A stretch of DNA of 64,000 nt from contig NZ_JAQSDC010000040.1 in assembly GCF_029945705.1 (NCBI RefSeq), forward strand, positions 1 to 64,000, given 5' to 3'. This DNA is from Methylotenera sp. (GTDB lineage Bacteria; Pseudomonadota; Gammaproteobacteria; Burkholderiales; Methylophilaceae). Below the pieces are notes generated by a model. That model was given only the letters and a program-made list of their open reading frames with translations. It was not told the origin of the DNA and ran no database searches. The translations under genes and the position numbers were made by a program. This document shows positions 18,372 through 21,760 of this stretch, in pieces (positions within the stretch are counted from its first letter, which is position 1; each line of letters begins with the position of its first letter).

Positions 18372-18815
18372 ATGAGTTTATACAATCCTACTCGCGATCA
18401 AGCCCGTCAATTTTTGTTTGATGCTTGGTCTAAATTCAAACAGCAATTAAGTCTGACTGATTTAGAGAAAATAGCGGTAGAAGTCATACAAATGCATCCT
18501 GAATATCATGTGATATTGGATTCGCCAGAGCGTTTTATGCACCAACAGTATTTTCCTGAAATGGGCGAAACTAATCCATTCCTGCATATCACCCTGCATT
18601 TATCAGTGATAGAGCAAATCAGCATTAACCAGCCAATTGGCATCGCGCAGATTTATGATAAATTACGCCTGCAGCACAACGATACGCATCTTGCGTATCA
18701 CGATTTAATCGATTGCCTAGCAGAAACCATCTGGCAATCGCAGCGTAATAGTCAAGCTTTAGATTCTGAACATTATTTGAACTTACTAAAACAAAGGTCA
18801 GGACTAATGACATGA
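18372..18815 (+). CDS. DUF1841 family protein
   Basis: Sequence YNPTRDQARQFLFDAW...HPEYH characteristic of the family. Confidence 0.8.
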   Translation: MSLYNPTRDQARQFLFDAWSKFKQQLSLTDLEKIAVEVIQMHPEYHVILDSPERFMHQQYFPEMGETNPFLHITLHLSVIEQISINQPIGIAQIYDKLRLQHNDTHLAYHDLIDCLAETIWQSQRNSQALDSEHYLNLLKQRSGLMT

Positions 18816-19384
18816 TTGAAAATCGAATGAATAAAAATGTCAATGACTGGCTAAATGACCATGGCGACTATCTATATCGCTTTGCCTTAGCAAGGCTACG
18901 TGATCCTCATCAGGCTGAAGACGCTGTACAGGAAACCATGCTGGCCGCGATTAAGAGTGATAGCTTTGAAGGCAACTCTTCTGCCAGAACTTGGTTAACT
19001 GGCATACTCAAACACAAAATTATCGATTTGCAACGTAAAAAAATTCGTGAACAACCGCTTTCTGATCTAATAGATTTAGATGCATCAGACAGCAGTATGG
19101 ATGACTTTTTTGATAAGAGCGGTCATTGGCTGGATAAACCACAAACACTGGACATGCCAGAAAACGCACTTGAACAAAAACAATTTCTTAGTATTCTAAG
19201 TGGCTGTATGGACAAGCTGCCAGCTAAATTAGCGGCTATTTTCATGATGCGGGATGTCCATGAAGTTGATAATGAAAATATTTGTAAGGAACTTGATATT
19301 ACCGCGACCAATGCTTGGGTGATGTTGTATAGAGCTCGAATGGGATTAAGAAAATGTCTGGAAATAAACTGGATTACAGGTTAG
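18812..19384 (+). CDS. ECF-type RNA polymerase sigma-70 factor
   Basis: Region 2 (YLYRFALARLRDPHQAEDAVQETMLAAI) and region 4 (LPAKLAAIFMMRDVHEV...ATNAWVMLYRARMGLRKCL). Confidence 0.93.
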   Translation: MIENRMNKNVNDWLNDHGDYLYRFALARLRDPHQAEDAVQETMLAAIKSDSFEGNSSARTWLTGILKHKIIDLQRKKIREQPLSDLIDLDASDSSMDDFFDKSGHWLDKPQTLDMPENALEQKQFLSILSGCMDKLPAKLAAIFMMRDVHEVDNENICKELDITATNAWVMLYRARMGLRKCLEINWITG

Positions 19385-19388
19385 TAAT

Positions 19389-19664
19389 ATGGAAACTCAT
19401 AAAATGAAATTAATGCTTACGTGTAAACAAGCCAGCCAGATTATCTCGCAGTCATTAGATAATCCTTTGTCACGGTCTGACCGCATGAAATTAAAGTTTC
19501 ATTTGTTTATTTGTAATGCTTGCACACGTTTCAATCAGCAATTACATTTAATTAAAACTGTAGTTCAGCGCATGAAACATGACACTGAAAATGACGACAC
19601 TATACAACTTACTGTAGACGCGAAAGCCAGAATTAGTCAGGCAATTGATTCTAATCATCATTAA
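19389..19664 (+). CDS. Small soluble zinc-finger anti-sigma factor-like protein
   Basis: MLTCKQASQIISQSLD...HLFICNAC (HxxxCxxC) directly after ECF sigma; no TM segment visible. Confidence 0.8.
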   Translation: METHKMKLMLTCKQASQIISQSLDNPLSRSDRMKLKFHLFICNACTRFNQQLHLIKTVVQRMKHDTENDDTIQLTVDAKARISQAIDSNHH

Positions 19665-19709
19665 ACGCATATTTTAAGTTTTATCATTTAATTTTTTAAA
19701 GGATTTATC

Positions 19710-20090
19710 ATGAACAACACGCAAAAAACTATCGCTCTTGCTCTTAGCGGCGCATTCGCTTTATCAATCGCAACGACTTCAATGGCTGCAGCGCAAAATC
19801 CATTTGCGGCAAAATCATTATCATCTGGCTATCAAGTGGCTGATGCCGATACCAAAATGAAAGATGGCAAATGCAGCACTGGCAAATGTGGTGCAAACAA
19901 AAAAGCTGCGATGAAAAAAGCAGAAGCTGAAAAAACAAAAGAAGGCTCATGCAGCGCTGAGAAGATGAAGGACGGTTCTTGTAGTGCAGAAATGAAAGCT
20001 TCTGCAGAAAAAGCGCATGAAGGCTCTTGCAGTGCCGAAAAAATGAAAGATGGTAATTGCAGTGCTGAGATGAAAAACAAAGCAAAATAA
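19710..20090 (+). CDS. HvfA/bufferin-like RiPP precursor: signal peptide plus Cys-repeat core
   Basis: Sec signal (ALALSGAFALSIATTSMAAA); six core Cys in [DE]G[KSN]CS/GKCG contexts; followed by DUF692 and DUF2063 genes. Confidence 0.85.
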   Translation: MNNTQKTIALALSGAFALSIATTSMAAAQNPFAAKSLSSGYQVADADTKMKDGKCSTGKCGANKKAAMKKAEAEKTKEGSCSAEKMKDGSCSAEMKASAEKAHEGSCSAEKMKDGNCSAEMKNKAK

Positions 20091-20104
20091 TATTGATGTG
20101 TTAT

Positions 20105-20153
20105 CTGATGAAACATCACTGTTTTAGCCGTTAATATGGTGATGTTTAATCAG
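20105..20153 (+). promoter_or_regulatory. Intercistronic inverted repeat (15-bp arms, one mismatch, 19-nt loop) overlapping the maturase start codon
   Basis: CTGATGAAACATCAC (20105-20119) versus GTGATGTTTAATCAG (20139-20153), 14/15 complementary. Confidence 0.75.
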
Positions 20154-21002
20154 ACAATCAGCAGAATTAACGGCGTGGGCTTGGGGCTAAAGCGTGAGCT
20201 TATTCCTCAAATCCAAGCCGTTTTTGGCGATAACTCTATTGCCAATCTTAATTTCGTTGAAATCGCACCAGAAAACTGGATAGATATTGGCGGCAAAGCA
20301 GCAAAGCAACTTGATTGGTTTGCTGAGCGCTATCCCATAGCTTGCCATGGTTTATGTCTTTCACTTGGCGGCCTAGCGCCACTCGACATAAACTTCTTGC
20401 ACCAAGTGAAGCAGTTTCTACAGCAATACAATATTCCGCTCTATACCGAACACTTAAGCTACTCAACTGATGGATATAAAGGTCAACAAGGTTATCTATA
20501 TGACTTGCTACCGATTCCATTCACTGAAGAGGCTGTGCATTATGTTGCTAAACGTATACGCCAAACTCAGGACATTCTTGGGCAACGCATCGCGATAGAA
20601 AATGCGTCTTTTTATGTGCAAGCACCCATCTCCAGTATGGATGAATTGAGCTTTCTAAATGCTGTGTTGACTGAGGCTGATTGCTTACTGCACTTAGATA
20701 TCAACAATATTTACGTGAATAGTGTTAATTTCGGCTTTGATGCGCATGAGTTTTTACGAGGTATTCCTGGTGAACGTATTGTTTATGCGCACATGGCTGG
20801 ACATTATCAGCAAGCGCCAGACTTACTGATTGATACCCATGGTGCCGATGTAATAGACCCCGTATGGGCGTTGCTGGAAGAGGCTTACCAATTATTTGGC
20901 GCATTCCCCACCTGTTTGGAGCGTGACAATAACATACCGCTTTTGCCATTGCTGATGCGTGAAGTGAACAAAATTGCTGACTATCAACGACATGTCAAAT
21001 GA
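20136..21002 (+). CDS. DUF692 / MNIO-family RiPP-modifying oxidase (HvfB/BufB-like)
   Basis: HGLCLSLGG, YTEHLSYS, IENASFY, LHLDINNIYVNS, HMAGH, CLERDNNIP motifs typical of DUF692. Confidence 0.92.
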   Translation: MVMFNQTISRINGVGLGLKRELIPQIQAVFGDNSIANLNFVEIAPENWIDIGGKAAKQLDWFAERYPIACHGLCLSLGGLAPLDINFLHQVKQFLQQYNIPLYTEHLSYSTDGYKGQQGYLYDLLPIPFTEEAVHYVAKRIRQTQDILGQRIAIENASFYVQAPISSMDELSFLNAVLTEADCLLHLDINNIYVNSVNFGFDAHEFLRGIPGERIVYAHMAGHYQQAPDLLIDTHGADVIDPVWALLEEAYQLFGAFPTCLERDNNIPLLPLLMREVNKIADYQRHVK

Positions 21003-21760
21003 TGACTAAGGACTTGCTTAGCTTTCAGAAGTACCAACTGGCATTCACTTCGCATATCCGCGACCCACTCAATCAACCTAGGCCAAAAAATGTAAAAAAC
21101 AAGGGCATGGATGTTTACAAAGAGATTGTATTCAATAACCTCTTTGAATCAGTTTCAGCTTGTTTTCCTGTCGTGCAAAAGGTCATCGGCAAGCGTGCAT
21201 GGCATAAGTTAATCCGCGGCTTCTTTAGTGAACACTCTTCATCAACGCCTATTTTTAGAAAGATTCCTGAAGAGTTTCTTGCATACCTGTCAAACATTCA
21301 TGCACTTACGCCAGAGAATTTCCCACCTTATCTAACAAGCCTTTGTCACTACGAGTGGGTTGAATTGCTAGTTTCAACTATGAAGGATGAAACAGATAAA
21401 CGTAATATCAATGCAATAGGTAATTTACGTATGAATCAGCCTGCATTTGAACCCGCAATGCAGCTACTCAATTACGAATATGCCGTGCAAAAAATATCTC
21501 CTCGTTATAAACCTAGCGTGAAAGAAAATACACAGCTTTTAGTCTTCCGAAATACAGAGCTTGAAGTAAAGTTTATAGAACTCAATAGCATTACTTATAG
21601 ATTAATTGAAATACTGAAGCAAAATAAAGTAAATTGTGAGCAAGCACTTACCATGCTTGCAATCGAGATAAATCAGGTCGAAACTGAAAGCATTATCCAG
21701 TTTGGCTTAGATATATTGGAAGACTTAAGAAGCCAAGGTGTGATTCTTGGGGTGTATTGA
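20999..21760 (+). CDS. DUF2063-domain protein (HvfC/BufC-like RiPP maturation partner)
   Basis: LLSFQKYQLAFTSHIRDP...YKEIVFNNLFESVSACFPVVQKVIG; ATGA overlap with DUF692 gene. Confidence 0.88.
   Translation: MMTKDLLSFQKYQLAFTSHIRDPLNQPRPKNVKNKGMDVYKEIVFNNLFESVSACFPVVQKVIGKRAWHKLIRGFFSEHSSSTPIFRKIPEEFLAYLSNIHALTPENFPPYLTSLCHYEWVELLVSTMKDETDKRNINAIGNLRMNQPAFEPAMQLLNYEYAVQKISPRYKPSVKENTQLLVFRNTELEVKFIELNSITYRLIEILKQNKVNCEQALTMLAIEINQVETESIIQFGLDILEDLRSQGVILGVY

Follow-up and report, generated by a model that had tools for sequence, protein, structure and literature searches.

Captophorins, the thiooxazole-bearing, copper-binding peptides that include fontiphorin, oxazolin and gonophorin, are among the most numerous classes of RiPPs; in the three peptides named, 5-thiooxazoles are present and copper is bound (PMC13097082). 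The processing enzyme FonBC accepts a two-repeat peptide as its minimal substrate and does not process position-5 variants, with the exception of Ala; in a model of FonB, the residue Phe250 contacts Lys3 and Gly5 of the substrate (PMC13097082). In Neisseria, a gene set of the same kind as the one presented below forms a single operon under sigmaE autoregulation, with MseR as the repressor (PMC2893595), and the peptide it encodes, gonophorin, contains 5-thiooxazoles (PMC13097082); a related sigma/anti-sigma pair from Haemophilus, RpoE2/HrsE, responds to oxidants (PMC7907618).

The locus that is the focus of the present analysis lies in a window of 64,000 nucleotides (the whole stretch of DNA analysed, positions 1 to 64,000 of contig NZ_JAQSDC010000040.1 of Methylotenera sp.), and we read it, with considerable confidence, as a captophorin operon switched by a ZAS/ECF pair and carrying a family-specific variant core. 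The five tightly packed, co-directional genes which a sequence-only reading had placed at 18812-21760 were indeed all found as open reading frames on one strand; the coordinates given in that reading hold, except for the MNIO start at 20136, which is more likely to be 20142, because the ATG found there in the window is replaced by ATA in two close relatives, L027 and L028. The features are as follows, cut-offs being the curated ones of each model:

18372..18815, + strand: DUF1841 gene (PF08897, 183 bits), an upstream neighbour that belongs to the context and not to the core
18812..19384, + strand: ECF sigma factor of the TIGR02943 family (208.6 bits, cut-off 162.2), with Sigma70_r2 and Sigma70_r4_2
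19389..19664, + strand: soluble zinc-binding (ZAS) anti-sigma factor (NF052368, 65.9 bits, cut-off 50; zf-HC2 matched)
19710..20090, + strand: open reading frame of the putative RiPP precursor, 126 aa, with a Sec-type signal sequence, a leader and a bipartite Cys core
19863..19892, + strand: canonical-like tandem core pair DGKCSTGKCG (Cys55, Cys60)
19941..20063, + strand: variant core EGSCS, DGSCS, EGSCS, DGNCS (Cys81, Cys91, Cys107, Cys117)
20136..21002, + strand: MNIO (DUF692) of the HvfB family (NF003818, 393.6 bits, cut-off 360; PF05114, 330 bits), start likely at 20142
20999..21760, + strand: HvfC-family partner, DUF2063 with a C-terminal NGO1945 RRE-type domain (NF050145, 246.7 bits, cut-off 142; PF09836 and PF22106 matched)

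The gaps across the five-gene operon measure 4, 45 and 45 nt, and the last two genes overlap by 4 nt; downstream, a small gene on the opposite strand is followed at some distance by one that looks, by eye, like secA, and no DoxX gene adjoins the operon in the window. The start of the MNIO gene lies in a strong RNA hairpin (20105-20153; z -4.3 in the window) that has a mean z of -0.7 over 101 loci; since it is not conserved, it was dropped from the mechanism. The closest relatives of the locus are found in Methylotenera genomes (the MNIO is 92% identical in L003), so the methylotrophic host proposed earlier fits, and an MNIO match is present in 113 of 187 genomes of Methylophilaceae. Among the 97 loci of this family having at least 1.4 kb of upstream sequence, the anti-sigma gene is kept in 86, which argues that the five-gene set is not a chance cluster; in the other 11 the A, B and C biosynthetic genes occur without a (sigma/)anti-sigma gene, an observation which counts against the reading preferred here, whereas the conserved order of the genes speaks for it.

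Both the DUF692 and the DUF2063 proteins, earlier taken for relatives of HvfB and HvfC, match these very families above the cut-offs, in line with captophorins of the Lys-Cys (HvfABC/Buf_EGKCG) type and their DUF2063-RRE partner (PME type 1), and the window partner also matches the 3DEE chain (E 8.7e-10). The precursor is a different case: the window precursor reaches 25.6 bits with the HvfA model NF050188 (cut-off 95) and has no match to NF050137, the cut-off of which is exceeded by a sister precursor from L012 carrying EGKCS/GKCG motifs. Since none of the 399 genomes of the order reaches the NF050188 cut-off, this model is too strict to decide membership, and its score was rejected as the sole test; the label of HvfA equivalog is not earned by the window precursor and is not claimed for it. 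Taken at the level of sequence, the assignment of the locus to the captophorin operons of the HvfABC/fontiphorin/gonophorin type is well supported, and the product of the operon is very probably an exported small peptide that binds copper, a member of this known and widespread class.

The arrangement resembles that of the Neisseria sigmaE operon NMB2140-NMB2145, or gonophorin (ngo) cluster, as an ECF sigma factor and a soluble ZAS anti-sigma factor share one operon with a Cys-repeat precursor, an MNIO and a DUF2063 partner in both (PMC2893595, PMC13097082); the Neisseria operon differs in having an extra DoxX-like gene (NMB2140) and EGKCG repeats, the window departing from it both in the core repeats and in the MNIO Phe site. 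With HvfABC (oxazolin, Haemophilus influenzae) and FonABC (fontiphorin) the window shares HvfB/HvfC membership, a presumably secreted repeat precursor and a conserved active site, whereas Gly at position 5 (P5) is replaced by Ser in five of the six motifs and Lys at P3 by Ser or Asn in four.

The precursor begins with a Sec-type signal sequence (judged by eye), followed by the leader NPFAAKSLSSGYQVAD; the NPF...GYxVAD leader is common to the window precursor and to canonical EGKCG precursors, and the pattern NPFxxxxLSSGYxVAD is shared by 97 of 100 precursors from the family and by 66 of 91 from the class-wide sample. The claim that the core is non-canonical stands for the four motifs EGSCS, DGSCS, EGSCS and DGNCS, which carry Ser after Cys where canonical cores have Gly, and fails for the first pair, DGKCSTGKCG, which is canonical-like. 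In the 100 family precursors this pair shows the 5-residue Cys spacing in 93 cases and GKC at a frequency of 89% in the first motif and 93% in the second; at the later sites, 37% have Lys before Cys and 35% Gly/Ala after it, and the spacing is most often of 10 residues. In the window, Cys81, Cys91, Cys107 and Cys117 are spaced by 10, 16 and 10 residues, and the DNA of the variant core is a 78-nt repeat in two copies (19917-20075). Six Cys are found in 50 of the 100 family precursors, the variant-repeat Cys being kept in most of them; in a few, L036, L051, L103, L113 and others, most repeat Cys are lost, the tandem pair near the leader being all that is kept. The [ED]G at P1-P2 and the Cys are conserved, and the changes at P3 and P5 follow a pattern, with S, H, A or N as the new residues. 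Judged from these motifs, the core change is a family-wide variant, with cores that grade from EGKCG into EGSCS/EGSCH.

The key residues of the MNIO were placed by alignment with 3BWW. Where His, Asp, Glu and Asn are to be expected near the iron sites, the residues, among them H71, H106, E155, D188, H219, D233, H235, E262 and D264, do not vary across some 190 aligned homologues. Asn265, following Asp264, occupies the Asp249-Phe250 site of FonB (ERDN in the window, ERDF in 3BWW); Lys-Arg and Asp-Asn in the window stand against Arg-Arg and Asp-Phe in FonB. Pairs of MNIO and precursor were collected from the family and from class- and order-wide samples, the motif sites being extracted by script; since a motif score served to pick the precursors, the set may contain a few wrong ORFs. 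Outside the family, Phe/Tyr is found at the FonB-Phe250 site in 126 of 134 loci, and in these 126 Cys is followed by Gly/Ala at 756 of 760 [GA]xC sites and by another residue at 4; in the 98 non-Phe Methylophilaceae loci it is followed by Gly/Ala at 278 of 542 sites and by another residue, chiefly Ser and His, at 264. Only one family locus retains Phe, and there Gly follows Cys at 5 of 5 sites. As far as the literature searched shows, such a family-wide variant core co-occurring with an altered selectivity site is new.

Outside the family, a non-Gly/Ala site occurs in 2 of 8 non-Phe loci vs 4 of 126 Phe/Tyr loci (Fisher p = 0.04), and on inspection all but one of those four Phe cases lie outside an [ED]G repeat context; L307, a Phe enzyme with an EGACS core, is a genuine counterexample. 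Independent-pair tests gave about 2-3 concordant and 0 discordant pairs and were not significant, because the association is largely one event, or about one, at the base of Methylophilaceae; with too few independent losses to go by, covariation was not accepted as an effect proven independently of phylogeny. Some family members, such as L067-L070, combine EGKCG-type cores with Ser at the Phe250 site; EGKCG-only cores thus occur with non-Phe enzymes, and the loss of Phe is therefore at most permissive, not sufficient. Loss of the P3 Lys was set aside as the key change, since it is also common with Phe enzymes.

By analogy with the characterised relatives, the HvfC-type partner would bind the precursor via its leader and the HvfB-type MNIO would oxidise Cys to 5-thiooxazole (an expected -4 Da per site, with absorption at about 305 nm); Sec would then carry the modified peptide into the periplasm, and there it may bind and buffer copper or other soft metals. 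The N-terminal DGKCSTGKCG pair would have been kept as a canonical-like substrate, and the C-terminal repeats may have become [ED]G[SN]CS, a change tolerated because the MNIO lost its bulky Phe. That the variant sites are modified at all seems to us slightly better than an even bet. A further step can be proposed tentatively, as a possibility short of probable: the Methylophilaceae enzymes may have acquired a relaxed or altered specificity through the loss of the Phe beside the catalytic Asp, forming thiooxazoles at EG[SNA]C[SH] and so yielding Ser/His-flanked heterocycles, possibly with some free thiols, and a metal preference unlike that of EGKCG products.

The modification could instead be confined to Cys55 and Cys60, the four [ED]G[SN]CS Cys remaining free thiols; the product would then be a hybrid, resembling a metallothionein and combining two thiooxazoles with four thiolates. 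The tandem pair is the best-conserved part of the core, a two-repeat peptide suffices for FonBC and position-5 variants other than Ala are rejected by it (PMC13097082), and three family precursors for which the full upstream sequence is available retain two Cys only, at this pair; the retention of the variant-repeat Cys in most of the 100 precursors and the change of the enzyme's selectivity residue in the same family argue the other way, and we regard this arrangement as rather unlikely.

Relaxed selection might also have let the repeats and the Phe site drift, so that the C-terminal repeats would be in decay and the two changes unrelated effects of lineage, as the near-complete loss of repeat Cys in the four precursors L036, L051, L103 and L113 and the phylogenetic confounding of the Phe/core association would suggest; such decay is improbable in view of the conserved [ED]G and Cys, of the patterned changes to S, H, A or N at P3 and P5 and of the full conservation of the catalytic residues.

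Regulation of the captophorin operon by its own sigma/anti-sigma pair can be approached from the anti-sigma protein, which is the sole zf-HC2 match in the genome. Its zinc motif, C12-x25-H38-x3-C42-x2-C45, fits the ZAS pattern C/H-x23-26-H-x3-C-x2-C, with the same ligand spacing as RsrA (C11/H37/C41/C44) and MseR (C4/H30/C34/C37) (PMC2893595), and the spacing is exact in 83 of 86 Methylophilaceae orthologues. The link between ECF sigma factors and this RiPP class drawn earlier is documented, together with a ZAS anti-sigma factor, in Neisseria (PMC2893595, PMC13097082); autoregulation is plausible in the window because the Neisseria counterpart is sigmaE-autoregulated and MseR-repressed. From adjacency, the ZAS protein would inhibit its cognate sigma factor, on which the operon would depend; oxidative or soft-metal stress would cause it to lose zinc or to form a disulphide, freeing the sigma factor and turning the operon on, and in this way the self-regulated response to metal stress suggested by the earlier reading may come about. 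ECF promoter patterns of the GGAA...CGT/GTC type showed no enrichment in 70 sigma-upstream or 109 precursor-upstream regions, and sigma-70-like sites were fewer in the promoter search than the shuffled mean. Of 70 sigma loci, 56 have DUF1841 next to the sigma gene, and in 22 of these 56, as in the window, the DUF1841 stop overlaps the sigma start; the sigma gene may therefore be co-transcribed and translationally coupled with DUF1841, and the sigma factor may be supplied from a promoter lying upstream.

The stimulus could also be oxidative or hypochlorite stress and not copper, in which case the peptide would serve chiefly as a thiol/redox buffer: there are redox switches among the ZAS anti-sigma factors of this type, and MsrAB is under the control of the Neisseria and Haemophilus counterparts (PMC2893595, PMC7907618). 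We nevertheless think this unlikely, as the captophorins characterised so far are copper binders (PMC13097082) and meningococcal sigmaE expression is unchanged by oxidants (PMC2893595).

Bufferins (Buf1/Buf2) resemble the window in the pairing of an MNIO with a DUF2063 partner and in being a Sec-exported metallophore class, and differ from it in their precursor families and in their BufB-type MNIO. That the operon itself is a bufferin operon, of the Buf1/DUF2282 or the Buf2 kind, is very improbable despite the identical overall layout and the sigma/anti-sigma genes included in Buf1 clusters (PMC12452194), since the window precursor matches neither the DUF2282 nor the BufA2 model, the BufA2 locus of the same genome sits elsewhere and the MNIO, at 261 bits with the BufB model, lies below the cut-off of 310 for BufB, its score with the HvfB model being above the one for HvfB, so that the term bufferin-like gives way to the HvfB (Lys-Cys) branch. 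This separate second cluster (G000 contig C36:21731-22513; L024:4911-7052) comprises a BufA2 precursor (NF050166, 106.3 bits, cut-off 60), a BufB-type MNIO (387 bits, cut-off 310) whose residue at the Phe250 site is Asp, in agreement with what is reported on Cys-Lys MNIOs, and a DUF2063-like partner. The second MNIO of another genus in the family (L131:2987-4648) is a 553-aa ORF followed by a DoxX-like gene, and its C-terminal half resembles, from domains assigned by eye, an in-frame fusion of the DUF2063/RRE partner; about ten genomes have open frames of comparable length.

Read as a ZAS/ECF-switched captophorin operon with a variant core, the locus would extend the Neisseria-type sigma/ZAS control of captophorins to a methylotroph family. 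So far, mutants of a single enzyme have served to probe which MNIO residues set the choice of Cys; Methylophilaceae, in which the proposed selectivity residue and the residue following Cys both depart from the norm, would offer a natural test of how an MNIO chooses its targets, and the gradient from EGKCG to EGSCS/EGSCH would suit the question of whether flanking Ser or His tunes the choice of metal.
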